Of a stretch of DNA of 63,454 nucleotides, positions 4,377 through 38,389 are shown piece after piece. Made by a program: the position numbers and the translations under genes. The notes under the pieces are model-generated. The model made no database searches, was not told the DNA's origin, and saw only the letters and a list, made by a program, of their open reading frames with translations. Numbering within the stretch: position 1 is the first letter of the stretch; each line of letters starts with the position of its first letter. Source of the stretch: Bolinopsis microptera (taxonomy: Eukaryota; Ctenophora; Tentaculata; Lobata; Bolinopsidae); NCBI RefSeq assembly GCF_026151205.1, contig NW_026971783.1, positions 1-63,454 on the forward strand, given 5' to 3'.

Positions 4377-5787
4377 CTAGTCATTTACAAATTGAGCACT
4401 ATACAATTTTAATTGTTTTAAATATTTGACTTTGTAAAATGAGCTAAAACATTGATTTATTAGTTTCATTGATTTATTAGTTTCATTGATTTTTGTAGGT
4501 GAATGGCCTTCATGGACAGGTACAAAGCTTATCTTTCTTACTTCTCCTATTGAAATTGTGGCTATTTCGGAGTCAGCAAGTATTTCTTGCTCATCGTCAC
4601 AGTGGAAGGGTAACATGCTTTCCTCAACCCCAGTGCTAGGAGGGAAGTAGTTTATGAGCACAGAGTTAGGCTTGTGTGTAAGTTTGCACTGGGAGGTGAC
4701 TCTATCAATAGCAGCTGCTAATGGTAGTGGGATGGGCTGGAGAGGAGGGGGCGTTGTGTCTCCAGAGTATGTGTAGCTTTCTCCATATTTAAGGACTGAC
4801 CTTCCGTTCATCTGGCTGAACTTACCAGTTTTTTTGCACTCAGTCAGAAAACTGGTGACCTCATCAAGCAGATTTTTGTCTAGGATGTCTACTTGGTAGT
4901 CCTTAATCGGCGGCATTACACATTTGGGGAGGGCTACTGTTGACCTCATCTCTTGTTTGACTGCTGCTGGAGGGCCCATTTGAGGGCTTCTGGATTTTTG
5001 GAAGGAGTAAATCTCTTCACTAAGTTGCGACAGTCTTGACTCAAGTGAAGATATCTCCACGGTGGGTATGCTGTTGGATACAGCACTCGAGATGGCATCA
5101 GATACAGCTTGGATGTTTTTGCTGTAGTCGACGCTAAACTTGAGAGCTTCATCCAATTTAGACGCGGTGCTGCTGTTTGGCTTGGGATGGATTGATGTGA
5201 AGCACCATGGACATTCCCAGTACTGAAGGATGGCATCAAGACCAATCTGTTGTGGGGAGCCACTTGTAATCTGGTTTGCTCCCTTGAGGTTGCTGCAGGA
5301 GGCGTGCCAATGCTGAGAGCATCTGCAACATTTGAGAAGCCATTCTTTGCCCTCAGAGCTTGCTCGACAGGGGCAGTTACCTTTAATGGCACGTTGCTTT
5401 GGACTTCCTTGATCTTTTTCTTCTTCTTCTGTATGGAAGGGTGGGAACGGTTTGTAAATAGGGCTCATAGGGCTATGAGGACTATCTCTTAGGCCACCAG
5501 GGACTAATTTTTAGGGTCAGAGATGTAGGTGGCTGTAATGTTGATGGTCCCGGTGAAGCAACAGTAAGCAGCTTTTCAGTTGGCAGACTGTTTGATCTTC
5601 GCCGTCCTGAGATGTTGGCTGCAGGGTTCTTCTGATTAGCCTTGCTTGTGAGGGGGCTCTTTCTGTGAAGAGGATTAGTCACTTTAGGGGAATGAGGTGG
5701 AGTAGCCTTAGCCTTAACAGATGCTGCAGGAGAGTTGTTTCTGGGCGAGCGTCTGTTTTGTGGTGGTGGTGTTGGAATTCTCTTCAT
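4377..5787 (-). pseudogene. Truncated LINE ORF1: basic N-term, PHD finger, coiled coil, partial AlkB domain
   Basis: Minus-strand ORF1 of a LINE-B relative in two frames. The first part (5787-5482) is a Pro/Lys/Arg-rich, probably nucleic-acid-binding N-terminus of about 100 residues. A single-base frame change near 5480 leads into the second part. That part holds a PHD-type finger (CPCRASSEGK, CCRCSQHWHASC, CPWC), a helical stretch, and the first half of an AlkB-like dioxygenase (VLKYGESYTYSG, VLINYFPPSTG, LPFHCDDE with H-x-D, then TISIGEVRKISF). Homology stops after VPVHEGHSP near 4500, and the last ~40 residues are unrelated read-through. The distal His and Arg, and the whole SGNH domain, are missing. 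The H-x-D iron ligands are preserved although the copy is dead. Confidence 0.7.
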
Positions 5788-7228: not shown

Positions 7229-8192
7229 CTCATCAGTCTTATGATTCTGTTGGTTACAATTCTGCCGTCCAATTTCATATCCGCTTGTCCTATTCTTTTT
7301 TCTTCTATCAGTTGTGACGGAATTGTAATGAACAAAATCCATATATAATTATTTATGATATGTTTGATTTTTGTTATTGTATGTCATTCAAATTTTGTAG
7401 ACGGCCCCAACGTTAATGTGGCTCTTGCTATGTGTTGGTTCAGCCGAATTAATTATTATATAATCAAGTTTATTTTTCTCTTTTAGTTAGTTGTCATTTG
7501 GCCAAACATTAAGCAACTTATATTGCAGTACCATTTACCATTTAGTATATCAAAATATGTCATTGTAATTTTGCATGGCTGAAATGTAACGCTTGATTTA
7601 TATAGTGAAACAAATTTTTAGTGAAACAAATTTAAAATTTTATCCTTTATTTTACAATCATAATATAATAATATCTATAAGCCTCCGTTTTGAAAGTTTT
7701 AAATTTTTTTATGTACAAGTCAATAACTGGCCGCCAAAGCCGCGCATTCTTGAAAACAGGATTAACTTGATTATAGTTATACGACTATGTAAATTTAAAA
7801 CTATCCGTGGTTTTTTCTTTTAAATAAATACGTTATTATTTTACTTAAGTCCAAAGCCAGCTTTGAAAAATTAACTATTAAATCATAATATATCGTCAAC
7901 TTTAAATATTTACAATGCAACAATTCATTAATCTGTAAACACGCGTACTCCAGCCCCTAAACGCATAAATTGTTATGCGGCGCGGCTCAAGCCGCGCACG
8001 CACGTATTATTTTATACTGTTTGCTTTCTAATAAATATCGTGCCAATGTGTACGTCTAAATTGTAAACGTTCATGTTTTGTGTAAAGTGAATCCAATTGG
8101 GACTAGTGACAAGGATAAGGACCCAAGTGCCTGTACGGCTTTTTCGGACCCCTGTGGACCACTACTCTTGAAATCACTCTACAACATTGAAC
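7229..8192. other. Intergenic, no gene seen
   Basis: AT-rich non-coding DNA after the RT fragment. The only structure noticed is a short GC palindrome (gcgcggctcaagccgcgc) near 7979-7998. No RNA gene, long ORF or clear repeat was recognised. Confidence 0.4.
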
Positions 8193-8205
8193 ATCTATAT
8201 CTACT
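8193..8205 (+). repeat. 13-bp target-site duplication, left copy (LINE-C)
   Basis: ATCTATATCTACT here is repeated exactly at 13755-13767, immediately after a poly(A) tail. The two copies bracket 8206-13754, which defines both ends of LINE-C and shows it is full-length and inserted by target-primed reverse transcription. Confidence 0.9.
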
Positions 8206-8358
8206 TTTGTTCTGGTCCAGAGCATTAGCCAGGCAGCTTCCCGGTAATTCGAGCGGCTGGGTGGGTCCTGGGCGGGATTGGTGTGGGTTCGTGCTCCTCG
8301 TGGTATGGTCTGAGATCTGGGGGTTGGCACGGGGGTGCGGCGGGGATGGGTGAGTGGT

Positions 8359-8464
8359 GCTGGCTGGAGGGACGGTTACTATTCATACCGACCAGCTTAA
8401 GCAAGTAAAGTTGTTTGCAGTCGGGACGGATGGGAACTTTGAATCGACAGTTAGCATTGCGATC
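8359..8464 (+). repeat. About 105-bp direct repeat in LINE-C 5' region (copy 1)
   Basis: The stretch from tggagggacggttac to cagttagcattgcgatc recurs at about 9250-9352 with roughly ten substitutions. Copy 1 lies in the non-coding 5' region and copy 2 inside the first ORF. Such internal duplication can arise from a repeated promoter module or from an old segmental duplication. It is about 890 bp from its partner. Confidence 0.8.
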
Positions 8465-8951
8465 CTGGCTCTTGTCAAACTCTCGGGCCTTGGACCCGTT
8501 TCTCGGGGCTAGCACGGGGGGTTTGGGCTCCCGCCTCTCGTCTGGAGCCTCCTGGACGCTTTAGAATTGCTGGGATTATAAGTACGGCGGCGGAGTCAGT
8601 CCTGAGCACCAGAGCATTCGTGAAGACTCCGCCCACTTACTCTGATTCATCTGACTGTAATTCCTTTCAACCCACTTCTTGTTCGTGTCTTTCATTCTTG
8701 GATTGATTGGAACTGCAGCCTGGAGTCGGTTAAGTGACCTTGACGTGGTAAGGGGGCTTACTCGGCTTCACTCGACCTGCCGAAACTAAGCCGTACTGTC
8801 CAGCTGGGCATCACTGGACATAAGTCGCACGTGCACTTCTTTTGGCTATTTAACTCACCTGATCCTTCCTCCCTGAGCACTCACAGCTTTCATTCACATT
8901 GAGCTATAGGGTTTTTGAAGTTTAGGGTGTGCGCTTCAGGTCGGGCCCTTA

Positions 8952-9686
8952 ATGCCGATCATTAGCACCCATTTTCCCTGTTTTATTGGGCGGCATTTCA
9001 ACACTGTCGTCGTAGTATTTCTCAGCATCTTTCTACGATTCGCAGAAAGTGTTAAAACTCACGATACACCCTCACTGATCAACCATTTGCTTTATAGATC
9101 GTGGATAGAGTGTGCTTCGGCAAACACGAATGTATGTGCACGGACTCTAGGGTCTGACTCATGCACTTTGTGCACCGTCCACGAACCCTATAAAGTAATA
9201 TACTGTAACAACACCAAAAACCAACCTTTACTACCAACAGTGGTGCCAACTGGAGGGACGGTAACTATCCATAACGACCAGCTTAAGCAAGTAAAGTTGT
9301 TTGCAGTCAGGCCGGATGGGGACTTTGAATCGACAGTTGGCATTGCGATCAGACCAACAACCTACTTTCAACCGACCACTTTTGACTCTCGGCAAGTCTC
9401 AATGGTCCAACCGACATACGACATTATTGTGTTAAAAGCTAAAAAAATCATATCTTCGCGCGGGTGCGCGCACCCACGTGAGAACATATGGTCACAAACA
9501 AAAGATAACAACAAACACAATTTCACACACAAACGTCTATTGAGCGGACTGTGGGAGCCATGTTCAGGGAAGGTCTGGCGGGGGCTGTTTGTCTGGAAGG
9601 GACCATGCGTACCTTCTGGAGGGCCAGCTGCTGCTACCCGACCCTGTCCAACTCCTCAGCGCCCCACCGGCAATGATAGGTCATAA
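8952..9686 (+). CDS. LINE-C ORF1, unrecognised protein (244 aa)
   Basis: ATG-started ORF upstream of and overlapping the LINE-C EN-RT ORF by 14 bp if that ORF uses the ATG at 9673. I do not recognise a domain. The N-terminus has a hydrophobic stretch (FNTVVVVFLSIFL, residues ~17-29), and a few Cys residues occur (CARTLGSDSCTLC) without a clear CCHC knuckle. Its central part (about 9250-9355) is the second copy of the 105-bp repeat found in the 5' region. By position it could be the ORF1/Gag-like protein of the element. The lack of knuckles and the overlap with a repeat leave open that it is only an open stretch of 5' UTR. Confidence 0.4.
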   Translation: MPIISTHFPCFIGRHFNTVVVVFLSIFLRFAESVKTHDTPSLINHLLYRSWIECASANTNVCARTLGSDSCTLCTVHEPYKVIYCNNTKNQPLLPTVVPTGGTVTIHNDQLKQVKLFAVRPDGDFESTVGIAIRPTTYFQPTTFDSRQVSMVQPTYDIIVLKAKKIISSRGCAHPRENIWSQTKDNNKHNFTHKRLLSGLWEPCSGKVWRGLFVWKGPCVPSGGPAAATRPCPTPQRPTGNDRS

Positions 9687-12600
9687 TACCTGTCTAGGGG
9701 GAGGGACGGCTTCCACTCCGCTCATTGACGCTCAAACTAGCACAAAAAAGAAGAGACGCCAAAAAAAGTTAAAAACTACTATTGCAGCAAGCAATAAGCA
9801 GTCTGAAACTTACTCTGTCACCCAAATTAATCTCAAACGCAAGTTCAATGCATGGAAAACCCTCCTTATCAACACTCACGGCCGGAGAAATCCAATCATT
9901 CTTGCAACAGAACCGTACTCTAATAACAAAAACCTAATACCACCCATCAATAAGGATCTCACCCAATATTACTACAAGGTCGGGGATAAAAGACCTCGTG
10001 CCGCTATTGTACTGCACAAAAACCTGACAGTAAAATGTTGGGAACTTACACAATTCACAACACCCGATCAAGTGGCCATTAAAATCCAACTCAGCTCGAC
10101 AGAACTCATTCTGGCAGCTTCGTACATGGATATAAATGGGCCGGTACCGCCACAAGAAACATCACCTCTAGCAAAATACGCAAATGATAACAACATCCCG
10201 CTCATTATAGGGTCGGACACCAATTCCCACCACACCCTTTGGGGGAACAAGGCATGCAATAAAAGGGGAGAGGAGCTTCTTGACTTTCTCTCCTCCCTAG
10301 GGCTGTCATGTGCCAACAAAGGATCATCCCCAACCTTCCTCAACTCTCGAGGCCACAACTCAATTATCGATCTCACAATAACAAACCAGTTGGGAGGAGA
10401 TCTCATTAGTAACTGGCATGTTAGTGACCTTTATTCCAACTCTGACCATCGCTATATTATGTTCGATATAACTACAGGGCCAAAGAAGGAACCCAAACAG
10501 ATCCGACTAGTCAAAAACACTGACTGGGACAGATTTGATGAGATCCTATCGAATAACCCCAACCTTAACAACACACAAATCAACACTACGACTGAAATTG
10601 ATCACAAAATAGACATAATCAATACTGCACTAAAGGAAGCCTTCGAGGAGGCATGCCCCATTACTTACATCTCAAGTTCCGTCCGCAAACCCCCCTGGCT
10701 AACTCAAGAAGTAGAGAAAGCACAGAGGGGAATAAGACAAAAACTGATTACTGCCCGCAAAAAGAAGACTGATGCCCTGTGGCTCGCTCTTAGAGAGAGC
10801 AACAAACAATACAACAGACTTATAACCAACTCCCAGCGTAATGCCTGGAGAACTTTTTGTCAGGAAACAGAGTCTGTTAAGGAATCCGGAAGGATGAATA
10901 AGATTCTGAAATCCTGTAACGACAACAAACATACACTAGAAGCCGTTTACAAACCAAACGGAGACATCACCAAAAATGCAGAGGAGACATTGGAGGTCAT
11001 GACACGAACCCACTTCAAGGATAGTGTCACTGATCCGCCAGTGCCTCCACCTGGTCCTCTACCAATCACCACCACCTTACTCAATACCATCTACAGCCCA
11101 GACAGAATCGAGGAGGCTCTTAAATCCTTCGATCCGTTGAAAGCTGCTGGACCCGACACCCTCAAACCTATCATCATACAGAAAGCTTGGACACACATCA
11201 AAGACATCACCAGAACCATTATGACAAAAAATCATGAAACCCAACACATTCCAACTTTGTGGAAAGAATCCCTTGGAATCTTTCTCCCAAAGCCTGGAAA
11301 AACTGACTACAACCAACCTAAGTCATTTCGCACTATCACCCTTTCTCCAGTGATGTTAAAACTACAGGAGAAGGTGATACTGTGGCATATGCAACACGAC
11401 CTTAATATCGCTAAAGACATCAACAAACGACAATTTGGCTTTAAGAAAGGATGTTCAACCGAAGCAGCCCTTCATAAAGTTACTCACACCATCGAGCGCA
11501 GGATAGCTAAGAAGGGATATGTCCTAGGCGTCTTTCTAGATATAGAGGGAGCTTTTGATAATGTCTCTTTCAAGGCTATTTCTGACGCTATCAAGACCAC
11601 GAAAGTGGATCTGGCCACAGCACAATGGATTATCAACATGGTAACTAACAGATTCATCACATTAAATCATAAGGATAAGTCGACAAGGGTTCGGATCCGG
11701 AGAGGGTGCCCTCAAGGTGGCATCCTTTCCCCTTTCCTCTGGAACCTGGTAGTCGATGATCTCCTGGCCTACACCGCAAGAGACATACCAGGTTATCTGC
11801 AAGCTTTTGCAGACGATCTGCTCTCTCTAGCGGAGGGGAATGATTTAGACATCATCTGGAACAGAACACGCAAAACCATCAACACAATAGAAAAATGGTG
11901 CCAAACCAAAGATCTATCCATAAGCGCACTCAAAACACAAATAGTCATGTTTACCTGGAATAAGAAATGGACACTAAGACCTGTGGTGGTGGGTAACACC
12001 ACTATAGGTCTATCCAAATCTGCCAAATTCCTAGGAGTGACCCTCGACAGCAAGCTCAATTTCAATGAACATATCACCAATACCACCAAAAAAGCTACGG
12101 CATCCCTTATGCAATGTAGAAGAGCTGTCGGCCCCACTTGGGGTATGAGCCCTAAAACATGCAAATGGATGTACACCGCTGTCATCAGACCTATTCTATC
12201 ATACTGCTGTAGTATATGGATTAGAGCAACCCAAACAGACACCAACGCGAGGAAGTTCAAACGAGTTCAGGCATTGGCATTGAGAATGATGTCTGGTGCC
12301 ATGCCTAGTACTCCCTTCATCGCACTGAACCACCTCACTAACACTCCAGATATCATACTTTTCTTGAGAGGTGAAGCAGCAAAGGGCACAGCCAGGCTTC
12401 AAGCTTATGGAAGCCTAACCCTCGAAACTATCGCCCCCAGAAAAGGTACCATCACAACTCACACCACTATCAACAAACAATTCATGGTAGATCTCAACAT
12501 ACCACCCAAAGCAGAGAGAGACCTATCTATACCAACCATGATGCTTGAACGACGCTTCACGGTCACCACTCCTGGAGCTGACAACATTGGATATAGAGGC

Positions 12601-13515
12601 TCACTCCAAAACACCATCGACAACATCCCCAGTGAAACCATCACCTGCTACACAGACGGGTCACGCACAGACTCAGGTAGCGGGGCTGGTTATATTATCA
12701 CCACAGACAACAACAACACTACACTAGATGAAAGATCATTCAAGCTTCCCGATTATTGCACCGTTTATCAAACAGAACTCACTGCCATCATCGAAGCTTG
12801 TAAATATCTATCAACTTATACAAACACACACATCATCATATGGTCAGACAGTCTCTCCTCTATTCAAGCCATATCCTCACCTTCAACGAGGAGTAGGACT
12901 ACTAGAGACTGTTACGACACCCTCAATACACTCGGATCCACTAACACCTTAGAGATCAGATGGATAGCTGCACACATTGGATTGTGGGGTAATGAAAAAG
13001 CAGACGAGCTGGCCAAAAATGGTACAACCAGTGAATCCACTTTGAATTGCCCAATTCCACAATCTTACATCAAACGCCTGATCAACGACAAAGTCACAAA
13101 ACTTAATCAAGAATCATGGATTACTGATGGTCCCAGACACACTAAACTGACACTTGGACATAAAAACATCAACATCATCAAAAATCTCAACACTACACTC
13201 AGTAACAACAGACAAAATTATAGAACTGCAGTGCACCTCATCACGGGACATTGTGGCCTCAACAAACACCTACACACCATTCGCAAATCAGACACAAGTG
13301 CTTGTCCTAAATGCGGCGACGAAGAGGAGACTGTCTCACACTTTCTCGGACAGTGCCCGGCTATTGCCCAAATAAGAGGTCAATATTTCCGGGACTACTA
13401 CCTCTCTGTCAATGACATATTCGACAACCAACACATCTCCACCATTGTCAACTTTACAAACCACACTAAACGCTTAGTGGTGCCAGAGGAGTTGGACCAG
13501 ACAGGTGTAACATAG
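9673..13515 (+). CDS. LINE-C ORF2: endonuclease, reverse transcriptase, RNase H, zinc knuckle
   Basis: This protein would nick target DNA, copy the element RNA and degrade the RNA strand in the nucleus. The frame is open from 9589, and the first ATG is at 9673 (about 1280 aa). An APE-type endonuclease comes first (ATEPYS, GSDTNSHHTLWG, IIDLTITN, NSDHRYI; about 9800-10460). The reverse transcriptase follows (FLDIEGAFDNVSF with the motif A Asp about 11530, CPQGGILSPFLWN motif B about 11710, FADDLLSL motif C about 11805). RNase H has TDGS, YQTELTAI, WSDSLSS and ADELAK supplying the D-E-D-D residues (about 12650-13010). A C-terminal CPKCGDEEETVSHFLGQC knuckle lies about 13300. The ORF is uninterrupted, so the copy may be functional. 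Upstream basic residues (KKKRRQKKLK) could be a nuclear signal. Confidence 0.93.
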   Translation: MIGHNTCLGGGTASTPLIDAQTSTKKKRRQKKLKTTIAASNKQSETYSVTQINLKRKFNAWKTLLINTHGRRNPIILATEPYSNNKNLIPPINKDLTQYYYKVGDKRPRAAIVLHKNLTVKCWELTQFTTPDQVAIKIQLSSTELILAASYMDINGPVPPQETSPLAKYANDNNIPLIIGSDTNSHHTLWGNKACNKRGEELLDFLSSLGLSCANKGSSPTFLNSRGHNSIIDLTITNQLGGDLISNWHVSDLYSNSDHRYIMFDITTGPKKEPKQIRLVKNTDWDRFDEILSNNPNLNNTQINTTTEIDHKIDIINTALKEAFEEACPITYISSSVRKPPWLTQEVEKAQRGIRQKLITARKKKTDALWLALRESNKQYNRLITNSQRNAWRTFCQETESVKESGRMNKILKSCNDNKHTLEAVYKPNGDITKNAEETLEVMTRTHFKDSVTDPPVPPPGPLPITTTLLNTIYSPDRIEEALKSFDPLKAAGPDTLKPIIIQKAWTHIKDITRTIMTKNHETQHIPTLWKESLGIFLPKPGKTDYNQPKSFRTITLSPVMLKLQEKVILWHMQHDLNIAKDINKRQFGFKKGCSTEAALHKVTHTIERRIAKKGYVLGVFLDIEGAFDNVSFKAISDAIKTTKVDLATAQWIINMVTNRFITLNHKDKSTRVRIRRGCPQGGILSPFLWNLVVDDLLAYTARDIPGYLQAFADDLLSLAEGNDLDIIWNRTRKTINTIEKWCQTKDLSISALKTQIVMFTWNKKWTLRPVVVGNTTIGLSKSAKFLGVTLDSKLNFNEHITNTTKKATASLMQCRRAVGPTWGMSPKTCKWMYTAVIRPILSYCCSIWIRATQTDTNARKFKRVQALALRMMSGAMPSTPFIALNHLTNTPDIILFLRGEAAKGTARLQAYGSLTLETIAPRKGTITTHTTINKQFMVDLNIPPKAERDLSIPTMMLERRFTVTTPGADNIGYRGSLQNTIDNIPSETITCYTDGSRTDSGSGAGYIITTDNNNTTLDERSFKLPDYCTVYQTELTAIIEACKYLSTYTNTHIIIWSDSLSSIQAISSPSTRSRTTRDCYDTLNTLGSTNTLEIRWIAAHIGLWGNEKADELAKNGTTSESTLNCPIPQSYIKRLINDKVTKLNQESWITDGPRHTKLTLGHKNINIIKNLNTTLSNNRQNYRTAVHLITGHCGLNKHLHTIRKSDTSACPKCGDEEETVSHFLGQCPAIAQIRGQYFRDYYLSVNDIFDNQHISTIVNFTNHTKRLVVPEELDQTGVT

Positions 13516-13724
13516 CGACTACTTTAACGCCGTCTTATTTCGCCTCTCTCTTCCACACTCAACCACCACTTAAGCGTTTATATATGACACACCCCACAAC
13601 ACTTACCATCATCCTTGATTACACATCTTGATTCCACTGGCATCCTCCCACAGGACTGCCATACCCCAGAGGTAGGCAAAGCATTCATATGCTATCCTCT
13701 CGTGGGCCAACCAGGCCCAGCCTC

Positions 13725-13727
<3 letters not shown>

Positions 13728-13755
<28 letters not shown>
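13728..13755 (+). other. LINE-C poly(A) tail
   Basis: About 28 consecutive A directly before the right target-site duplication (13755-13767). This marks the 3' terminus of LINE-C and its plus-strand orientation. Confidence 0.95.
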
Positions 13756-13758
<3 letters not shown>

Positions 13759-13767
13759 ATATCTACT

Positions 13768-14589
13768 ACGTCATTTGGCAATTATTGTCATTAATCTAAC
13801 TTTCTAATTAATTGCCGAGGGGGAAGAGTAAACGCTTCACATTAAAATTCAATATACAAAATTCAAAACCATCAATACGGTATTAAATATTATGGACAAA
13901 TCTATAGATCTATTTCGTAGTCATATATTCACATGATTTGCTATATATTATCTTAATACTGTAATGAAGTACAGTAGGATTTGTGTTTCGAGAAAGAAAG
14001 GTTGCGGTCAAATTATTAACAAAAGTAAACAAAAGTCCATCAGGGACTCCGTGGAGTCGAAAAAGGTACACGGCTGCTGTCTGGTGCTGCTAGGCATTTA
14101 TTGATCAAGATGTTTTATTGTATTGATTTATAATGATTCTATTGTTCGTGACTAATCAAGTTCTAAGTGGAGGTATAAAGTGCTGCTCAAGATACTTCGT
14201 CATCTCATGTCCAGTATAATGATTAAGATAGTATACAATGCAGTTTTAGTAGTTGACCCATACAGTTAAGTCCGTCATAACTCACAATCGTTAAGTCGTC
14301 GGTCAATTGTCAGAGTCGTTGTGTGTTTATTCGTTGAGATAGCAGTAAGATAAGATGTTACGCGCGCGCGCGTTTAATCCCGTCGACGTGAGATGTGACA
14401 ATGAAAACGCCATAGAATTATTATTTTCGCGCGTTACGTAGAGTTTACCAGTGTGTAATACTAGTTAACACTGGGTGTACACTGAGTGTAAGTGTAAGTT
14501 TCATATACAAGCCGTTGAATATTTCCAATTTTGAGTGTATCGTGAGCATGTTTTACAGTGCGATTGCTCGGTACTAGTGTGTTTGTGTA
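13768..14589. other. Intergenic, no gene seen
   Basis: Non-coding DNA between LINE-C and the 3' end of LINE-B. It contains a short CG run near 14361-14372 and no recognised gene. Confidence 0.4.
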
Positions 14590-14698
14590 TATATATATAT
14601 ATCATTTGTGGAGTATGGTGTAAGTAATGTTTTTGGTTGGAGTGCAGTGGTTGTATGTATGAGAAAAGATATATGGTCATTTTAGTAACTCACATAAA

Positions 14699-17600
14699 TC
14701 AGAACTTGAGCTCATTTGTGGCAAAATTAAGCTCACACCAATCAAGTGTATCATGCTTGAATTGCAATTCTCGTAAGGCAATTTTCAATATATTCTTAAA
14801 CCCGTTTGTCCGAGTATTAAAACTTATCTTACTTGATGTTTGTCGACAGCTGTTCCACATGTAGGATGATTGGTAGATGAATTGTGAGGATGGTTGTGAT
14901 GTAATGAAATAATCCTCTCGTCGTGGTGACCTGTTAAATGATGAGTACAGTGATAATGGTTCCTCTAACTTATTAATTTTGAATAGTTCTAAGAGACAAG
15001 TGTACTTGTACAGATTGTGGACCGTCAACAACCTGTGGGTTTTAAACAAGGGCTTGGAGTGTTCTTTTTGGTAAAAGTCCACCCCCAGTCTTTGCTTATC
15101 AACAGGTCGTGTTCGGGCACACGTTTTAAACTTCTCTAGGTAAGCTTCTCTATCCCCAAACAGAATTCTTATACACTTTTTCTGTGTTTTAAAGATAGGT
15201 TCAAGTCGGTTATTGCTAATACCACCCCACACAGATATTCCAAATCCTAAATGTGATTCAAATAGAGTATGATTATATAAATCCTTATAATACTGCTTTG
15301 GGACAATGTGTCGTATTCTGCACAGCTTTCCTACTTCGCATTTAAGTTTTGAGTTAAGTGACTGCGTATGTGATTTCCAGTTAAGTTGGTCGTCAATAAT
15401 AACGCCTAGAAATTTAGCTTCTTGAACTCTTTTAATAACTACATTATTTAAAGTTAGTATGTTCTCGTCATTTTCTACTTCCTCTTTGGCCCGTGAGGGT
15501 TTAAAATGAATAAAACAACATTTCTTAATGTTAATATGTAATAAGTTTAGTTTCATATACTTGTACACAAATGATAGAACTTCATTTCCTTTTTCGTATA
15601 GTCTTTTGACACATGTGTCTTCTATAAATATGTTAGTGTCGTCGGCAAATAGTATAAACTTTCCTATAATTGATGAGTTACGGATGTCATTAATATAAAT
15701 AATAAAAAGTAAGGGACCAAGACAGCTCCCCTGCGGCACTCCATAGACTACTGGAAGTTTCTCGGATTCTTCACCTAATACTGAGACATACTGGTATCTG
15801 TTCGACAGGTAACTTGCTATAAGGTTATTTGCATTTCCACGGATTCCATAATTTTCTAACTTATGCAGTAACTTTTCATGTGATATTGTATCAAAGGCTT
15901 TACTAAGATCAATAAATATTCCAAGAACGTGTTGTTTTTTCTTGAGGCAAGATTCTACGTGGTTCACTGAGTAATTTAGGGCATAACTGGTCGAGTGATT
16001 TTTACGGAATCCGTACTGGTTTTCATATAAGGAGTTCTGTGAATGAAAGAAGCTGTATAATCTGTTGAATATAATCTTTTCAAATATTTTACCAAACACA
16101 GCTAGCGTTGATACAGGTCTATAGTTTTCAAGGAGTTCCTGGTTATCTTTCTTGTAAATGGGACTAATCCTTCCAACTTTAAGGTCATCTGGAAATATGC
16201 CATCTTTCATACATTCGTTATACAGTACAGTGAGTAAAGGAGTAACTATTTTAGAGGACTGCTTAATTACATGAATCGGTATGTCACTTGCCTTACCATT
16301 TTTAAGTTCAGATATGATTTTGCTAACCTCGTCTGTTGTGCAGTCATGCATGTAAATGCTGGAAGTGTTTGAAAGCGGTAGATAATCATAGAAACTAGGT
16401 ATACTGTTTATGTTAATTTGTCCAAGATCATTGTAAGCGGTATTTAGGTCAGAGGCTAATGATACAAAATATTTATTGAATTCGTTTGCTATGATCCTTC
16501 TATTTGTTATCTTAACGTTGTCTATGGTGAACAGCGGCTTTATTTCACGCCGCCGTTTACCTCTTATACGATTTATTAGTTCCCAGGTCTTTTTACTATC
16601 ACCGCTATTTTCAGCAAATTTACCAGAGAAGTGTTCTGTTTTCACAGTTTGACGTGTTTTCTTTAGGACTTTTCTGTATTCTTTGTAGATAAGGTAGCGA
16701 CTACGTTTTAGTGAGCATTCAGGGCACTGGCAAATGCCGCCCTTGTTATCAGTTTCCCCGAGTTTACATTTTCTATTTCTTATCTCAACCCAATTTTCGT
16801 ACAGTTTATGCTGATTATTAATTGAGCAAATGAGACCGGGAGTTATCCAAGGGTTAACCTGAACAGTTCTCTTAGAGGTTTTCGGGGTCTCTAGTTTAAA
16901 CGATTTTTCGACGCAGTTTTTGTAAGTGTCATGGAATTCAGTAAAGTTATGGATTGTTTTAGTTTTAAGCTCATCTTCAAGATCCACTAGGAAGCCGTTA
17001 ACATTTGATTGACAGAAGTCGTAATATTGTTTAAAAGAAGTTTTTTCAGAGTTGACTTCAACATTCCAGTTAAATGTGTTAAAAATAGGTGAGTGATGAG
17101 TTATTCGTTCTTTTAGGGTGCCTGAAGTAATCACATTCTCAATATCGTTAGTAATAATGTTGTCTATGCAGGATGCTTTACAGCCTGGTTTTTCGTGGGT
17201 AACAATAGATATTAACGGACAAAATCCTTTACTGAATAATATTTCTTCATATTTTTGAACATTTTTGTTATCTTTATCATGAAGATCGATATTAAAGTCT
17301 CCAGCTAGATAACTAAACTTCGGCATGTGATCAAGAAGGTTAGAGAGTTCAACTAGAGCTTGGGAAATACAGCCACTTGGTGGACGATACAAAACACCTA
17401 CATTAACAGGTTGATCTTCGTTACTTAATGATAAGACAAGTATTTCTAGATGTTCTGTGACTTGTGATATATTCTCAATTACAGTAGCATTTAATTTATC
17501 GTCAACATAAAGGGCTACTCCAGTGCCCTTTTGTTTGTTAGGTGCTGTGTCCTGATAATAACTATTATAACCGTCGAGCTGAAATAGATTGCTTAATTCT

Positions 17601-18055
17601 TTTCCAGTGTTGGTTTCAGCTAGGGCTATTACGTAGAATTTTGTTTTGTACCTACAGGTTTCAATGGCAAGGTTGTCAAAATTTGATTTATTTCCATCAA
17701 TATTTTGAAAGAGAATAGATGATTGTTTCTTTACTTGGTTGCAGAGAATATTTGTAAGGTCAGATGCAGTGTATGAGTTACAATCATTTAAAGTATTTGA
17801 GATTTTGGTTGTGTATTCGTCTAGGTTGTTGTCGTCGTCGTCATTGTCAGTGAGTAGTTTAAATGGGTTGTATTTAACCTTGTCTAAATGGATACAACGA
17901 GTACAGTAAAACTCATTAGATTGGCTATTTGGATTTGATTTGCGATAGCATTTATGGTGCATTATGCAGTCACAGTGAAAACATTCAACTATTGTTTGGC
18001 CGATGACTATGTTCTTAGAACAGACAGGACATACCTCCTTAATGAGGGGAGTCAT
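14699..18055 (-). CDS. LINE-B ORF2: C4HC3 finger, APE endonuclease, reverse transcriptase
   Basis: A 1118-aa replication protein expected to nick chromosomal DNA and prime cDNA synthesis. It starts with a PHD/RING-like C4HC3 finger (C9, C12, C25, C28, H33, C36, C51, C54). An APE-type endonuclease follows (FQNIDGN, ALAETN, GTGVALYV, VLYRPPSG, AGDFNIDLHD, CIDNIITN, HHSPIF in place of the usual S-D-H). Next is an RT with NYRPVSTLAV, GIFIDLSKAFDTISH (motif A), YGVPQGSCLGPLLFIIYIND (motif B) and LFADDTNIF (motif C, near 15640). The C-terminal thumb region carries FLGVIID and FGDREAYLEKF. No RNase H is present. The start ATG overlaps the ORF1 stop, which decides the start. No frame break is visible. 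The finger at the start of an EN-RT is unusual and recurs in LINE-A. Confidence 0.95.
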   Translation of the reverse strand: MTPLIKEVCPVCSKNIVIGQTIVECFHCDCIMHHKCYRKSNPNSQSNEFYCTRCIHLDKVKYNPFKLLTDNDDDDNNLDEYTTKISNTLNDCNSYTASDLTNILCNQVKKQSSILFQNIDGNKSNFDNLAIETCRYKTKFYVIALAETNTGKELSNLFQLDGYNSYYQDTAPNKQKGTGVALYVDDKLNATVIENISQVTEHLEILVLSLSNEDQPVNVGVLYRPPSGCISQALVELSNLLDHMPKFSYLAGDFNIDLHDKDNKNVQKYEEILFSKGFCPLISIVTHEKPGCKASCIDNIITNDIENVITSGTLKERITHHSPIFNTFNWNVEVNSEKTSFKQYYDFCQSNVNGFLVDLEDELKTKTIHNFTEFHDTYKNCVEKSFKLETPKTSKRTVQVNPWITPGLICSINNQHKLYENWVEIRNRKCKLGETDNKGGICQCPECSLKRSRYLIYKEYRKVLKKTRQTVKTEHFSGKFAENSGDSKKTWELINRIRGKRRREIKPLFTIDNVKITNRRIIANEFNKYFVSLASDLNTAYNDLGQININSIPSFYDYLPLSNTSSIYMHDCTTDEVSKIISELKNGKASDIPIHVIKQSSKIVTPLLTVLYNECMKDGIFPDDLKVGRISPIYKKDNQELLENYRPVSTLAVFGKIFEKIIFNRLYSFFHSQNSLYENQYGFRKNHSTSYALNYSVNHVESCLKKKQHVLGIFIDLSKAFDTISHEKLLHKLENYGIRGNANNLIASYLSNRYQYVSVLGEESEKLPVVYGVPQGSCLGPLLFIIYINDIRNSSIIGKFILFADDTNIFIEDTCVKRLYEKGNEVLSFVYKYMKLNLLHINIKKCCFIHFKPSRAKEEVENDENILTLNNVVIKRVQEAKFLGVIIDDQLNWKSHTQSLNSKLKCEVGKLCRIRHIVPKQYYKDLYNHTLFESHLGFGISVWGGISNNRLEPIFKTQKKCIRILFGDREAYLEKFKTCARTRPVDKQRLGVDFYQKEHSKPLFKTHRLLTVHNLYKYTCLLELFKINKLEEPLSLYSSFNRSPRREDYFITSQPSSQFIYQSSYMWNSCRQTSSKISFNTRTNGFKNILKIALRELQFKHDTLDWCELNFATNELKF
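18052..18055 (-). promoter_or_regulatory. ATGA stop/start overlap coupling ORF1 and ORF2
   Basis: The ORF1 stop TGA and the ORF2 start ATG share bases in ATGA. Overlapping stop/start codons allow termination-reinitiation in some bicistronic LINEs, for example the UAAUG of the silkworm SART1 element. Here it would let a downstream ORF2 be made from one RNA at a low ratio to ORF1. Confidence 0.75.
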
Positions 18056-20196
18056 GGTTGGTAACCATCCACGTGACCCTGACTAGCAGCAGCAGGAACA
18101 ACAGGACCAGTTTCTCTTCCAGCAGTCGCATCCCTGTAGGATCTATCGTCTACCCTTGTGGACCTCCTCTTCCTTTTGTCGATACCACCGTTAATCCTGA
18201 GAAGAACAGTGTTACGAATAAATTGACCTAACTTTGCTAGTCCCCTCCAGTTGAGGTGAAGGAAGTCCGGTTTTTGGTATTTGTTGAGGTCGCGAGAGAG
18301 AGAGCGGTCAAGGAGACCATCCCTATCACAGAACTCATCAAATCCATCCACATAACTGACACCAAAATTGGACGGGAGCAGCCTACATCGAATCAAACTG
18401 TTAAAGTATATAAGCTTTCTATTTAAATCAGCACGTTTAGAAGGAATTGTTGGACAAACATATACATGCACACCCGGATTAATAGATTGAATCTGGACAA
18501 TTTTTGAAACTAGATGGTTGTAGATTATATCAATATCGTTTTGGCTTTTTACATCTGTTTGTTTCAGGTCATTAACCCCACACAATATAACACAGTTTCT
18601 ATAGCCACAGGACACATAAGGATCAATGCTATCGACAGTTGGGGCAAAGAATCGTTTTCCAGGAAGCCATTTGCCGAATGACTTGGCAGGATCAGAACCG
18701 AATTTCAGTCCGCCGGTGTTCGAGTCCCCAATGATACATGTAGCGTTTCTATTCAGGGAACTGACTGATCTCAATGTTATACTGTAGCGCAGCCCAGTTA
18801 TCTCGCCTGCATCGATACGATGGTGGAACAGTGCTTGGCTACGACGAGTCATTACATATAATGATCCTGGGCCACATAGTTGCTTGTGCTCATCAATACC
18901 TGTACTAGCATCAGAGAAAGAAACATGACATGCAGTACCAAGAGAGACTGTAAAGATACTTGATTCCGGGTGGATAGAAGGCTTGTTATCAGAGTGTCTA
19001 GGCAAGGTGCTGCTTGTGCCGTCAAACCGATTCACCAAACAGCTGTTAACCTGAGGTTGGTCACCTGAACAAAACTCACTGTTGATTCTGTCGATGAGTT
19101 TTCTCAAGGGTGGTGGTATTGCCTTTGGTGTCTTGGACGACTTAGATCCAGGATAATCGTACCGTTCCCCATATGATAGGCAGGAGCGTTCGTTTTCAAT
19201 TTTGAAGTCTGTGCTGCTCAAATCAAATAGGTCAACTAGTTCTTCCGCAGTCTTCTGATCTATAAAATCGTTTTTGAACAGTTCCACAGGTTTCTGCTCA
19301 TGATGAGGTGGCTGCAAAAGGACAGGTGGTGCTGGAGGACGAGGATGCTGTGCAGGAGGTAGGTTGGGAGGAATGCAAGGACCAGGGTTATGCAATGGCT
19401 GTATAGAACTTATAGACTGTTTTAGTTCAGCAATGCCTGCAGCTACAGTGGGCTCATTTGCAGAAAGTGCGGTGAGTTGTTCTGAGATGCTCTTCAGAAA
19501 CTGCTCAGATGAGTCTGTAGATGGGGATGATTCAGGGGAAGGTCTAGATGCTAAAAGTTTAAGGTCCCTCTGTAGTTCAGCAATGTTGGTATTTATTGAT
19601 TCTAATGATTTGTCATGGAGCTTTATTTCATTATTTAGGCCATTAAGGGAGTTCTCTTTAAGAAGCAGGTGTTGAAGGTGAACGTCGAACTGGGAGAGAG
19701 TGTCAAGGTTCCTAGAGAACTGTTCGAAGTCAAATTTTTCAAGAGCTGAGCCTGCTGAGCTTGCTGATGCCACAAGTGCACTGACAGTTTCAAGATTCTT
19801 AACAGCTGTAGATGCTTCAAAATCTGAGTTGACCTGTTGCAAAGCCCTTGTGTTCCTGCAGCTGTAACAAAATTCGTCTCTCTGTTTCTTCAGTGTTGAT
19901 ACTGGTGCCACGAAGCAGTATGGGCACAGCCATTCTACCATGGAGTTGATAGCTGACCTCGTTATACCCTTCATAGACAAGCAGTCCACATGCCACTCTT
20001 GATGACACTTAGAACAGTCAATGAGGTAAACTTTACCGTTAAAAGAGCGTTGACATGGACATTTCTTCTTGTCCCTATGTTTCCTGTTTACCTGATCTTC
20101 ATTGTCCACTGTAGATTCGGCTAAAATGTTGCGAGACAAGCTATTAGATGTTTTAGGAGTACCTGAATTCTTCCTAGTATTTGACGCCATTTTCAA
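18052..20196 (-). CDS. LINE-B ORF1: PHD finger, coiled coil, AlkB-like dioxygenase, SGNH hydrolase
   Basis: A 714-aa protein with four parts. First is a PHD-type C4HC3 finger (C46, C48, C61, C64, H69, C72, C91, C94) with an extra CxxC at 110-113. Second is a helical, coiled-coil-like region (about 130-265) followed by a Pro-rich linker (270-300). Third is an AlkB-type 2-oxoglutarate/Fe(II) dioxygenase (about 305-480): SYGERYDYPG, LVNRFDGTS, H401-x-D403, distal His at 458/459, then Arg470/Arg476 in GLRYSITLR. Fourth is an SGNH hydrolase (485-665) with GDSN at 490, CGVNDL at 539-544 and D644-FL-H647. Esterase and PHD domains are known from CR1-like ORF1 proteins; the dioxygenase between them is the odd part. 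If active it could oxidatively demethylate RNA or DNA of the retrotransposition complex (inference). The C-terminus is basic (KRKRR at 674-678). The reading frame is intact. Confidence 0.92.
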   Translation of the reverse strand: MKMASNTRKNSGTPKTSNSLSRNILAESTVDNEDQVNRKHRDKKKCPCQRSFNGKVYLIDCSKCHQEWHVDCLSMKGITRSAINSMVEWLCPYCFVAPVSTLKKQRDEFCYSCRNTRALQQVNSDFEASTAVKNLETVSALVASASSAGSALEKFDFEQFSRNLDTLSQFDVHLQHLLLKENSLNGLNNEIKLHDKSLESINTNIAELQRDLKLLASRPSPESSPSTDSSEQFLKSISEQLTALSANEPTVAAGIAELKQSISSIQPLHNPGPCIPPNLPPAQHPRPPAPPVLLQPPHHEQKPVELFKNDFIDQKTAEELVDLFDLSSTDFKIENERSCLSYGERYDYPGSKSSKTPKAIPPPLRKLIDRINSEFCSGDQPQVNSCLVNRFDGTSSTLPRHSDNKPSIHPESSIFTVSLGTACHVSFSDASTGIDEHKQLCGPGSLYVMTRRSQALFHHRIDAGEITGLRYSITLRSVSSLNRNATCIIGDSNTGGLKFGSDPAKSFGKWLPGKRFFAPTVDSIDPYVSCGYRNCVILCGVNDLKQTDVKSQNDIDIIYNHLVSKIVQIQSINPGVHVYVCPTIPSKRADLNRKLIYFNSLIRCRLLPSNFGVSYVDGFDEFCDRDGLLDRSLSRDLNKYQKPDFLHLNWRGLAKLGQFIRNTVLLRINGGIDKRKRRSTRVDDRSYRDATAGRETGPVVPAAASQGHVDGYQP

Positions 20197-20386
20197 ATCA
20201 AATGTAAGTAATACTGACCAAATAGATCCGACTTGGGGTCGGCTCCCGTTAAGTGTTTTGTTTTGGAGGAGATTAGGACTTCAGAGTTGATGACCCTAGT
20301 AAAGTGTAGATGACCCTCAAATTATTTGTTATATAGTAGTGTTGAAAGTATTAAAATATTAAAATATATAATAATTAATTGAATTT

Positions 20387-22705: not shown

Positions 22706-25700
22706 ATTTCTTAGGTAGAATGTAGTAGTGACGACCCACATACAGCTATGGCTGGAGAGTCTACGCCCAAAATCAAGATGGGATCAACACTGTGTGCTGT
22801 GCTATTTGTTTTTGCTGTTTGTTCGTGGAATGTTAGAGGCTTGGGTAGTCCAGATACTGCGGTTAATGATAAAACTCGGTCTGAACGACTTTTGAAGAGG
22901 GAGTTACTGGGTAATGACTGCAAAAGGTATGGTATGGACATTGTGGGACTACAAGAAACTAAGTGCACTAATCAGGTGGATATCATACTTCACAACAACT
23001 ACAGACTGTTAATTTTTGATCAGGAAGAACAATGTCATGGGGATATCGGATTTGTTATTAGCCCTAAACTGCAACCTTTCATCACAACCTTCAAACAGAT
23101 CTCTGATAGAGTTGGGTATATTGATTTTTGTTTTCCTCTCAAGGGTGGTAGTAATAAGAATTTCAGAATCATCAACAGTTATGGTCTCACATCTCTTCGT
23201 GCTCAACAACACCCTGACAAACTGTCTCAGTTCTAGAGATTTACACAATGTATCCTCTATTCCATCAAAATGGGAAATGTTCCACTGCGGAGATTTCAAC
23301 TCAAAGCTGGGTAAACGAACTAGGGTTGATGAACAATTAGGTCTGGAAGGTTTGATAGGTAGACATGGTATTGGGACTAGAAATGAAAATGGGGAGCATT
23401 TGCTTGAATTTATGGTTAAAGAAGACCTAACAGCATGTAATACTTTGTTTGATCATCCCAGTAGGCACAAACTAACTTGGACTGGTGAACACAGGACTAA
23501 GAGAAATACTCCTATATACGCTCAACTTGACTATGTGCTTTGCAGGAGGAGGTCTACAGTTTTAATAAAGGACAGCAGATCATACGGAGGCGCTGAGCTA
23601 CGATCTGATCACAAACCTGTTGTAACTCGATTAACGCTGAAAAATCATGTTCTCATTCACAAAACCAACAAATCAGATAGCACTCAGTTTGACTGTTCAA
23701 CTCTCTACAGGGATAAAGAACTCAGACAGAAATATCAAAGTGCGATTGCTGAAAGGTTATCGGGTAAAACTTATCCAGATGACCCAAATGAGAAAATGAA
23801 TGAACTTTTTAGTGACATACGTGCGTGTGCTGAAGAAACTATACCACTGAAAGGGAAATCCTCTAAACAAAATTTCTCCAGTGATCTAACAGTAGTTTCA
23901 TTAGTTGCTAAAAAGCGTGATCAGACTCTGAAGATCAAATCAGCCCCAAGCGGTAGTGATGTTAGTGAAGATAGGAGAGAAGTTAGAAAGATTCAGAATA
24001 GCATTTCTAAGAGACTAGTGCAAATAAATAACATGAAGGCTGACGCTCTAGCAGAAGAAATAAATAACACCGACGACACCAGAAAGATGTTTGAAGCTTC
24101 AAGATCTTTAGCTGGAATAAAAAAGTCGGGTAACATAGTGGTCAATGACACCAACAACGACCCTATTGGTACCGATTTAGGGAAAGCAAACACAGCGAAA
24201 TCTTTCTTCGAAAAACAACTAACAGAAGGAATTGAAGCTGGCCTGCAACCTTTTACCTGCGATCCAAAACCACTTGATAACCCCATTACACCAGTCGAAG
24301 TTAAACTTGCTGCAAGTAAACTCAAATCAAACCGTGCCAGTGGTCCAGATAATCTCCAGAATGAGTTGATAAAGTACGCCCATCCAATCACGTTTGAGAA
24401 GTATGCTGAGGCAATTAACGAGTCATTTAGTGGGAACAAATACATTAGTTCGATAGGACAAGGTATTGTGACTCCTCTACAGAAGCCCGGTAAACCTAAA
24501 GGTCCCCTCACAAGCCTTAGACCACTTACACTGTTAAACGGATCGAGGAAGATGCTCACTCAAATTGCCTTAAAACGGGTTGAGAGTAGAATTGACAACT
24601 ACACCATGCCATGGCAGAGTGCTTACAAGAGAGGTAGGAGCTGCTCTGACATTGTGTGGGCTCAGAGAATGCTCATATCTGTTGTGATGAGGAAGAAATG
24701 GACATTTAGCAAAATGGGTATTGATATGAGTAGAGCTTTTGATACCGTGAAAAGGGATACTATCATCAATGTTTTGAAAGATGCTGGTTGTTCGGAGGAC
24801 GACATTCGCTTAGTTCAATACCTTCTATCGAATACTCTCCTTAGAGTTCGTGTTAACTCCTCACTGTCGGAAGAGTTTGAAAGTTTACTCGGAGCCTTTC
24901 AAGGTGACAGTTTATCTGGAAAGCTATTCACACTTATTCTTGCAGCAGCCTTACACCACCTCAGAGCTGTATCTGGGAGACCAAACCCACCAGTATCAGA
25001 ACTAGGTTTTCCAACTGAGTGGGAATATTCAGACGATTGTGACTTTGCTGACGAGGACATCGAGAAACTGAGAATTTTCCTTCCTGCAGTGAAGGAGATT
25101 CTCAAAGACTGGAACCTCCAAGTAAATGAAAGTAAAACTGAATTCAGTACCTTCTACCTGGCGAAAAAATCTGACAAAGACACAAACGGTCAGCCATTAG
25201 CCAATAATGAACCATGGCGAAGTAATAAGTCACTAGGTTCCTTACTGTGTACTGAAAAGGACATTCAAAGAAGGAGGATCCTAGCTGAAATTGCTTTTAA
25301 GAACTTCGAAAAAGTATGGTTGTCCGGTAAGAAAATTTCCCTTGAAAGAAAGCTGAGATTATATGACGCTCAAGTTGTATCTGTATTAATTTACAACTCA
25401 AATAGTTGGAGTCCTAAAAAAGTAACTATGGAGAAAATGGACACACTTCATCGTAGACACCTCAGGTCCATTCTAAACATCAAATGGCCTAAAGGTAAGA
25501 TAAGCAACAAAGCATTGTATGAAAGGTGCAAAGTTAAAAAGTTATCTAAGCGTATCGAACACCAGCGGTGGAAGATGTTTGGACACATTCTCAGGAGTAT
25601 GGAGAACACCCCAGCCCAAACAGCTCTCTCTTTTGCTATTGAATCAGATAATTTATTCATTGGAAGATTAAGGAGACCTAGAATGAACTTGTTATCGGTT

Positions 25701-25888
25701 TTAAGAAATGATTTAAGTAGTAGAAATTTGCAAATGGACAACTCTCATGAATTGAACGAAATTAGAGATATAGCTGCATGCAACAGATGTTGGGAAAATC
25801 TTTTTCAAGGGTACAGTTTACCGCATTAAGGTATTTTTAAGAATCATTTTTGTCGGTAAGATCCTGTTTTATAACAATAATAATAATA
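22706..25888 (+). mobile_element. RTE-like LINE inserted in the foldback element
   Basis: About 3.18 kb with one EN-RT reading region, a very short 3' UTR and an (AAT)n tail (about 25873-25890). ATCTGTA at 22699-22705 is repeated at 25889-25895. The uninterrupted opposite arm shows the matching target (CTTATCTTTATTTGAC, reverse complement of about 26620-26640). Short 3' ends with simple-repeat tails fit the RTE group. Confidence 0.8.
22748..25829 (+). pseudogene. RTE-like endonuclease/reverse transcriptase, one frameshift
   Basis: The first frame (22748-23236) gives the start of an APE endonuclease (CSWNVRGLGS, DIVGLQETK). The second frame (to 25829) continues with FHCGDFNSKLG, GRHGIGTRNENGEHLLEF, HKLTWTGEHR and LRSDHKPVVTRL, wording typical of RTE endonucleases. 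The reverse transcriptase then has MGIDMSRAFDTVKRD (motif A), GAFQGDSLSGKLFTLIL (motif B) and WEYSDDCDFAD (motif C with YSDD near 25025). The two frames must join near 23225-23235, so one indel interrupts an otherwise complete protein. The ATG at 22748 is the first in frame after the target-site duplication. A programmed shift is possible but a plain mutation is likelier. Confidence 0.85.
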
Positions 25889-37805: not shown

Positions 37806-38389
37806 GAATCTACATTCACGGCGCTAAATCTTTTAAAGCTTCTTGCACTTAATATAATTTTGCACTTAATATAATCTTGCACTAATAATACATTTTATGG
37901 CCAGGTAGCGCAGTTGGTTAGCCATTGATACATGTTTCGTATGTTTCGTATGTTTCGTATGTTTCGGCGGCGCGCGCTTCGCGCGCGAAAAGTGGCATGC
38001 AACGTATGTCAAGTTAGCCAGCTTTGCAATCGTGAGGTTGCGGGTTCAAATCCCACTGCCTGCCTGGTCGTGGGGTGAGTGTCGTTGACATTCAGCTAAG
38101 GATCGTGAGTGGTCTATGCAGTATGCAGCCCCCCGGTCTACTCAGCCGAATTCTCGAGAAATCGGGTGTGAGGGTTAAATGAGGAGCTGCACATTGCAGC
38201 AAAGTCTCGGGCGAAGAAAGTATGGTACACACTACCTTAACCGTCACTGGCTAAAAACAAATCCTTCGGCTTCCTGTAATTGGCTGGTTGCACCTGTGTT
38301 ACAATATGGCTGTTGGAATACTCCGAAGTAAAATAAGTGTCTAGATTTAAAAAAAAATCTCTACGCGAAGAGAAGCGTACTGTCACATA
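37806..38389 (+). repeat. tRNA-derived SINE block, left copy
   Basis: A tRNA-like head has a pol III A-box-like TAGCGCAGTTGG (37906-37917) and a B box GGTTCAAATCC (38043-38053). A unique body follows to the start of the 29-bp tandem array. Two ttgcacttaatataat repeats precede the head. An 88-bp insertion sits between the two boxes. The whole block is repeated in reverse complement at 53896-54480. A functional tRNA is excluded by the insertion and by lack of a complete cloverleaf. Confidence 0.75.
37925..38012. mobile_element. 88-bp mini-MITE with 8-bp target duplication inside the SINE
   Basis: GTTAGCCA at 37917-37924 and 38013-38020 flanks an insert that begins TTGATACATG and ends CGTATGTCAA. 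TTGA/TCAA ends are imperfectly inverted, and the centre has atgtttcgt repeats and a gcgcgcttcgcgcgc palindrome. An 8-bp duplication is typical of hAT-like elements. A related copy lies at about 61473-61534. Confidence 0.65.

Follow-up and report, generated by a model that had tools for sequence, protein, structure and literature searches.

That a retrotransposon can encode a demethylase of the AlkB family is already published for a plant: in Ty3/Gypsy elements of the orchid Phalaenopsis the second open reading frame (ORF2) specifies an ALKBH5-like 2-oxoglutarate (2OG)-dependent dioxygenase, and its protein, according to the accessible part of the report, binds and demethylates RNA in vitro (PMC9289625). 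Published too, as far as the accessible part of the relevant survey goes, are PHD and esterase modules in the ORF1 of CR1/L2 long interspersed nuclear elements (LINEs); 448 elements were analysed there, and the esterase ORF1s were confined to two vertebrate groups (PMC4120745). How does a LINE of the ctenophore Bolinopsis microptera compare, in which a single ORF1 unites a PHD-like finger, an AlkB-type Fe(II)/2OG dioxygenase domain and an SGNH hydrolase domain? It lies in a stretch of 63,454 nucleotides (positions 1 to 63,454 of contig NW_026971783.1, assembly GCF_026151205.1), which in its full length is called the window below, and many further LINEs of this genome, as well as Helitrons, carry related AlkB domains.

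For an AlkB or other 2OG dioxygenase in a LINE or a Helitron, no report was found in the open-access literature, searched mostly at the level of titles and abstracts and with Repbase outside its scope; AlkB in papers on Diplonema and krill concerns cellular genes. Apparently new, in consequence, is the presence of AlkB in LINEs and Helitrons, and the extent of its spread within a single genome is unusual. Methyl marks serve to silence transposons, and some methylated bases block reverse transcription. A demethylase inside the LINE ORF1 protein and in Helitrons would be an element-borne answer to silencing or to such a copying block.

The AlkB domain and its active site

The Pfam family PF13532 (2OG-FeII_Oxy_2) matches ORF1 residues 334-474 with E=1.1e-15 and 58.7 bits against a curated cut-off of 31.2. 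The iron ligands are H399, D401 and H457 and the 2OG motif is R468-Y-S-I-T-L-R474. H399, D401, H457, R468, T472 and R474 are identical in 25 of 25 aligned copies (the partial frames L012, L014 and L028 being left out, and L025 also standing outside the invariant list), while AlkB-domain identity among seven representatives is 38-50%, except for the window with L009 (73%) and L015 with L020 (90%). When a profile of 21 AlkB domains from transposable elements (TEs), A1, was searched against the PDB, it matched ALKBH3 at 1.4e-26, ALKBH2 at 1.3e-24, ALKBH8 at 9.8e-17, E. coli AlkB at 2.2e-12, ALKBH5 at 9e-5, ALKBH1 at 4.2e-3 and ALKBH7 at 0.076. The rows of A1 were chosen by a pattern that includes H-x-D, S-L/I-G and R-x-S-x-T-x-R, so that the invariance of these residues in A1 follows in part from how its rows were chosen; the distal His, the Gln preceding it and the Gly and Tyr of the lid region are absent from that pattern and are invariant in all 21 rows. 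A YxY pair aligns with Tyr141 and Tyr143 of ALKBH3, its first Tyr being present in 21 of 21 rows and its second in at least 90% of them; in ALKBH3 the methylated base is anchored by Tyr143, according to the accessible part of PMC10816986. As judged from sequence the domain is a genuine member of the AlkB family, closest to ALKBH3 and ALKBH2.

What fold is predicted? An AlphaFold model of the domain, from a four-sequence alignment with three domains of the window and an AlkB of bacterial origin, has a pLDDT (predicted local distance difference test score) of 82.7 and a pTM (predicted template modelling score) of 0.83; the other four models of the same run had mean pLDDT values from 75.2 down to 50.5, and a single-sequence model of AlkB plus SGNH, at pLDDT 32.6, is uninformative. 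VIA-align superposes the model on ALKBH2 with Z 20.6 and on ALKBH3 with Z 20.2 (173-174 residues, 2.4 Å), the values being lower for ALKBH6 (19.4), FTO (18.7) and ALKBH5 (18.1). The best solved structures found by Foldseek are ALKBH6 (2.1e-10), ALKBH2 (4e-10) and ALKBH3 (9.5e-10), with ALKBH7 also among the structural matches. In the model, then, the domain is a double-stranded beta-helix of the kind seen in ALKBH2. The first-pass annotation of this DNA, made from its letters, had proposed an AlkB-like dioxygenase and had named three findings that would speak against one, the lack of a significant AlkB profile match, a predicted fold lacking the double-stranded beta-helix and iron ligands varying among family copies; all are contradicted, the first by the Pfam score and the ALKBH3 profile match, the second by the confident model and its Z scores, the third by the 25 identical copies, and the proposal is borne out.

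AlkB in other LINEs and in Helitrons

The genome searched comprises 264.65 Mb in 232 contigs. With the ORF1 protein as query, tblastn gave at least 71 matches (63 of 1492 first-look candidates were scored); among these are ten full-length ORF1 copies at 99-100% identity, the window's own included, while the remainder comprise one group near 84% and others mostly at 42-50%. A genome search with PF13532 gave at least 151 AlkB matches (150 of 587 candidates were scored). The matches listed are above the cut-off and all but one are without inner stops, a scarcity that is biased in that the scoring favoured intact candidates; the two additional AlkB-bearing frames in the window escaped this search, so that its count is a minimum. 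The AlkB signature is present in 53 of the 55 loci L002-L056, in L014 through its distal part alone; the misses are L055, a Helitron-type domain lacking the last motif, and L056, of the L030 class described below, which has Asn for the Thr of that motif. Three sampled AlkB loci are host-like, L039 grouping with human ALKBH2 and L038 and L040 with ALKBH3.

AlkB and SGNH both match (E<=0.01) in 10 of 10 long TE frames scanned (the window and L029-L037, one ORF each), the SGNH match being weak in L030 (0.0079) and L037 (0.0098). Reverse transcriptase was found in the expected stretch in all 16 other AlkB-bearing LINEs sampled, 27-96% identical to that of the window LINE; these are 16 elements, not all of them separate families, as L029 and L034 share an ORF2. 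The first-pass annotation was right about the fusion in the window LINE and missed AlkB in two further ORF1s of the window, one of them followed by its own ORF2 and the other decayed (Table 1), as well as in the many other LINEs and the Helitrons. In two LINEs of the window, at 8206-13751 and 23016-25829, the ORFs scanned (those of at least 150 amino acids) are without AlkB. At L008 (C2:1945951-1951086) an ORF1 copy of the window LINE adjoins a further frame with AlkB that runs in the opposite direction.

Some pairs of LINEs are mosaics. The ORF2 blocks of L029 and L034 are 95-100% alike except the first (87%), and their ORF1s just 51-79%; between the window LINE and L009 the finger is 97-98% and AlkB 71-82% alike, with synonymous divergence (dS) of 0.07 and 1.23 respectively, and L015 compared with L020 also shows mosaic divergence. 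It is as if parts of ORF1 had been exchanged between LINE lineages, so that an AlkB or SGNH that has diverged strongly now accompanies an ORF2 or a finger that is almost identical. Diverged pairs permit an estimate of selection: the ratio of non-synonymous to synonymous divergence (dN/dS, Nei-Gojobori) for AlkB is 0.132 for the window with L009, 0.163 for the window with L011, 0.081 for L022 with L023 and 0.181 for L015 with L020, and for SGNH it is 0.099, 0.106 and 0.092 in the first three, silent sites being saturated in the fourth. Close pairs, with few changes, give 0.23-0.39. These ratios indicate that the AlkB domain is under purifying selection.

The Helitrons carry the same two domains in the reverse order. 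A frame of 3388 amino acids (L031 with L069) has SGNH, then AlkB, DUF6570, Helitron_like_N and a PIF1 helicase, and the Rep-like Helitron_like_N and PIF1 domains, in one frame with AlkB, identify it from its domains as a Helitron. Another of 2459 amino acids (L032 with L068) has the same domain order, its PIF1 match being cut at the frame end, and L033, Helitron-type and of 1012 amino acids, has SGNH and AlkB only. The recurrence in LINEs and Helitrons suggests that domains have moved between transposons of class I and class II.

Where did the domain come from? In the AlkB tree 22 TE rows, the window's among them, form one branch (support 99/97) that excludes the human and host ALKBH2/3 proteins, and the window AlkB does not group inside the cellular ALKBH2/3 branch of that tree, where an orthologue would be looked for. 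The L030 class (L030 itself at C1:21675500-21683500, with a reverse transcriptase just 27% like the window's) falls with the cellular side, though all 23 TE rows are also on one side of a branch supported by 90/81; a second, independent capture from host ALKBH2/3 is suggested by the trees for this class, not shown. In an earlier tree L035 was placed, weakly supported (63/57), with the cellular sequences; this did not recur once the second window ORF1 was added. The best tree nests the Helitron AlkBs among those of LINEs, and a LINE-only clade is not rejected (approximately unbiased test, p 0.155). Most simply, the AlkB-SGNH cassette would have been taken up once and then spread. A search of viral contigs with alignment A2, able to find near relatives only, gave 33 pattern stretches and none that was confirmed. 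Within the same limit, the host ALKBH2-like L039 has one relative in genome contigs, in a metagenome-assembled genome of Bacteroidia, and a search from that relative found none in viral contigs.

The rest of the element and its neighbours

The element is a non-LTR (long terminal repeat-lacking) retrotransposon, with endonuclease and reverse transcriptase in an ORF2 downstream of ORF1, as the first-pass annotation had supposed. In Pfam the reverse transcriptase (RVT_1) is above cut-off at E=2e-36, and the endonuclease (Exo_endo_phos, E=8.6e-5) slightly below, at 22.8 against 24.5 bits. The open frame at 18052-20196 on the reverse strand was correctly placed by that annotation; a TTG at 20196 opens it upstream of the likely ATG at 20190, and counted from that ATG its H401 and D403 become H399 and D401. 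The two frames overlap, the TGA that ends ORF1 sharing letters with the ATG at which ORF2 starts (18055). A PHD/esterase ORF1 and a 3′ tail of short repeats would fit a place for the element in the CR1/L2 clade of the Jockey superfamily.

Table 1. Features of the AlkB-bearing LINE and of neighbouring LINEs in the window, residues being those of ORF1
Feature	Position	Strand	Basis or remark
ORF1, 712 aa	18052..20190	-	likely ATG at 20190; intact in 99-100% identical copies elsewhere
C4HC3 PHD-like finger, residues 44-92	19915..20061	-	PF00628 E=8.8e-4, below cut-off; eight ligands invariant
AlkB-type Fe(II)/2OG dioxygenase domain, residues 296-476	18763..19305	-	Pfam, conservation, profile, model
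Codon 403, Lys here, Glu in other copies	18982..18984	-	GAG to AAG at CpG
SGNH/GDSL hydrolase domain, residues 477-665	18196..18762	-	Pfam, alignment, profile match
ORF2, 1118 aa: N-terminal zinc-finger-like segment, endonuclease, reverse transcriptase	14699..18055	-	Pfam
LINE copy, 5′ part: 5′ untranslated region (UTR), ORF1, ORF2, part of 3′ UTR	13752..20354 (ends approximate)	-	alignment with other copies
Remaining 3′ UTR of the AlkB LINE copy, 16-bp tandem repeat tail (Tandem Repeats Finder, 7603-7633)	7603..8205	-	
Other LINE, nested in 3′ UTR of the AlkB LINE	8206..13751	+	endonuclease-reverse transcriptase-RNase H ORF 9589-13515
Second AlkB-bearing LINE ORF1, 479 aa	30322..31761	+	AlkB residues 116-247 E=9.2e-18, then SGNH E=0.006 below cut-off
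ORF2 of second AlkB-bearing window LINE	32545-35574	+	
Third AlkB-bearing ORF1, 363 aa, decayed	4377..5468	-	PHD-like finger and AlkB cut off after HxD part

The two other ORF1 domains had been read as a PHD finger and an SGNH hydrolase. For the finger, the C4HC3 ligands stand (C44, C46, C59, C62, H67, C70, C89 and C92 are invariant in 24 of 24 aligned copies), while the Pfam PHD score of 19.7 does not reach the curated 24 bits. The hydrolase likewise scores below its cut-off (PF13472, Lipase_GDSL_2, E=1.8e-5; 25.8 against 32.9 bits), and here the reading holds up, S14, N64, D166 and H169 of catalytic type (numbering of alignment A4) being invariant in 12 of 12 rows and a profile of those rows matching the LINE ORF1 esterase structure 4c1b, among other SGNH enzymes, with E=0.0017. 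With these catalytic residues and its relation to the ZfL2-1 esterase, the protein is by sequence an ORF1 of the type IV esterase kind. The SGNH residues vary among distant families, so that hydrolase activity is not certain everywhere: L029, L034 and L036, whose rows are outside A4, have SSS in place of GDS; L035 and the second window ORF1 are without the Asp three before the His; and inspection of residues in L030 saw no clear catalytic triad. The AlkB site is kept in distant families where the SGNH residues depart from the canonical set.

The nested LINE has an A tail (13728-13755) and a target-site duplication of about 16 bp. Elsewhere in the window a 52-bp satellite is present in 122 copies around 41401-47746, and its flanks (37841-38653 and 52596-54440) consist of 29-bp minisatellites and short repeats whose units are mutually reverse complementary; judged from the repeat units only, these flanks resemble the inverted ends of a large element.

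Function and known relatives

What might such a domain do for a LINE and a Helitron alike? We lean towards the ORF1 protein AlkB being an active ALKBH2/3-like demethylase whose substrate is single-stranded nucleic acid of the element itself; its activity, what it acts on and what the element gains are each what we infer. The first-pass annotation had suggested that the domain may protect the element's RNA or cDNA, or counter host methyl marks, and demethylation of that RNA or cDNA is compatible with the evidence. ALKBH3-type enzymes act on single-stranded nucleic acid, and the element's own is favoured because a single-stranded stage is common to LINEs and Helitrons and fits the ALKBH3 substrate. 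In LINEs the target would be RNA in the ORF1 protein particle together with cDNA as it is being made, and for Helitrons it would be the single-stranded intermediate of transposition; what is removed would be methyl groups that block copying (of the 1-methyladenosine, m1A, or 3-methylcytidine, m3C, type) or that the host adds as a mark. The SGNH partner may do a separate lipid-linked job, as proposed for the zebrafish ORF1 esterase.

Several points weigh against this proposal. The Z scores for ALKBH6, FTO and ALKBH5 are just 1-2.5 lower than those for ALKBH2 and ALKBH3, so that the fold does not fix the substrate. Among eight near-identical copies AlkB is without a clear excess of silent changes (summed over pairs, 26 silent and 21 non-silent), which says little. 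The window copy, though its frames are open, may be impaired: residue 403, adjacent to the iron site and two after the Asp of HxD, is Lys there and Glu in the 24 other aligned copies, the change (E403K, G to A at a CpG) being private to it among the eight, and the concern arises because the matching residue in ALKBH3 chain 8jnk, an entry whose title describes an active-site crosslink to single-stranded DNA, is Cys. Helitrons have no RNA template, and the presence of AlkB in them speaks against a purely reverse-transcription role. In mammals, furthermore, N6-methyladenosine (m6A) helps L1 and ALKBH5 restrains it, according to the accessible part of PMC7873242; a LINE would thus not necessarily profit from the removal of m6A.

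The chief competitor, which we regard as possible and distinctly the less probable, is that the domain erases a host-written mark (m6A or m1A on transposon RNA, N6-methyladenine on DNA) and not blocking lesions, a host marking system then explaining why AlkB is found in so many elements, LINEs and Helitrons both, of one genome. That the fetched TE-rich loci are poor in CpG (observed/expected 0.54, with TpG at 1.21) is in its favour, and from this depletion the host genome probably methylates its DNA, though 5-methylcytosine is not known as a usual AlkB substrate. There is also a plant retroelement that is freed by ALKBH9B erasure of m6A, as summarised in the accessible part of PMC9289625. Against these stand a sequence nearer to the repair-type ALKBH3 and ALKBH2 than to ALKBH5 or ALKBH1, and a host in which no such mark is known. 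More speculative still is a bolder form, in which the AlkB-SGNH cassette would be a shared mobile weapon, passed between distant LINEs and into Helitrons and stripping a host-written mark from single-stranded transposon nucleic acid; if true, it would amount to a transposon-wide epigenetic or epitranscriptomic counter-defence.

Need the domain be a nucleic acid demethylase at all? The LINE ORF1s scanned, with E limits that differed between scans, had no Pfam RRM or CCHC match, and esterase-type ORF1 proteins are described, in the accessible part of PMC3905857, as without defined RNA-binding domains, so a catalytically silent AlkB fold could be imagined as an RNA- or single-stranded DNA-binding module, taking the role that an RRM has in other ORF1 proteins. 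We find that improbable, as a module which only binds would not need the iron and 2OG residues, yet these are invariant in 25 of 25 copies at domain identities of mostly 38-50%. Hydroxylation of a protein, of the host or ORF1/ORF2 itself, is a slightly fainter prospect; some AlkB relatives have non-nucleic-acid targets, for instance ALKBH7, which is also a structural match here, but its profile match is far weaker than those of ALKBH3 and ALKBH2 and the base-contacting Tyr pair is kept. As for a chance frame, a chimeric assembly or a functionless one-off capture, for which nothing speaks beyond the E403K of the window copy, its likelihood is negligible given ten almost identical full-length copies at different sites in the assembly, related frames at two other window loci, and the purifying selection.

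The nearest cellular counterparts are ALKBH3 and ALKBH2, the 1-methyladenine/3-methylcytosine demethylases, which the domain resembles in predicted fold (Z 20.2 and 20.6), in whole-domain profile match and in active-site residues, and from which the TE domains other than the L030 class are set apart as a branch of their own (99/97). AlkBs of RNA viruses and giant viruses are as good matches as cellular ones among predicted structures (Foldseek E from 2.2e-11); they are parts of polyproteins or free-standing, unlike those here, and the likeness is structural. Among transposons, the type IV esterase ORF1 of L2/CR1 LINEs, such as zebrafish ZfL2-1 (4c1b), shares SGNH in the ORF1 protein as far as the accessible parts of PMC3905857 and PMC4120745 go, whereas here PHD, AlkB and SGNH are combined and Table 1 of PMC4120745 has no dioxygenase. 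PHD-containing CR1/L2 ORF1s share the finger and the reshuffling of ORF1 modules, the partners in that same table being RRM, CCHC and transposase-22 type, not AlkB. In the platyfish an SGNH gene was mobilised by a Helitron, which parallels the SGNH of the Helitrons here; the accessible part of that report (PMC4021074) does not mention AlkB, while in Bolinopsis SGNH and AlkB are both inside the Rep-PIF1 frame. The orchid Gypsy elements are alike in having a retrotransposon-encoded AlkB-family protein, in Bolinopsis a putative demethylase, with its cofactor residues intact. They differ, going by the accessible part of PMC9289625, in being plant LTR elements with a separate, ALKBH5-like ORF, where the ctenophore domain is carried in LINE ORF1 and Helitrons, is nearer to ALKBH3 and ALKBH2, and is fused to SGNH.

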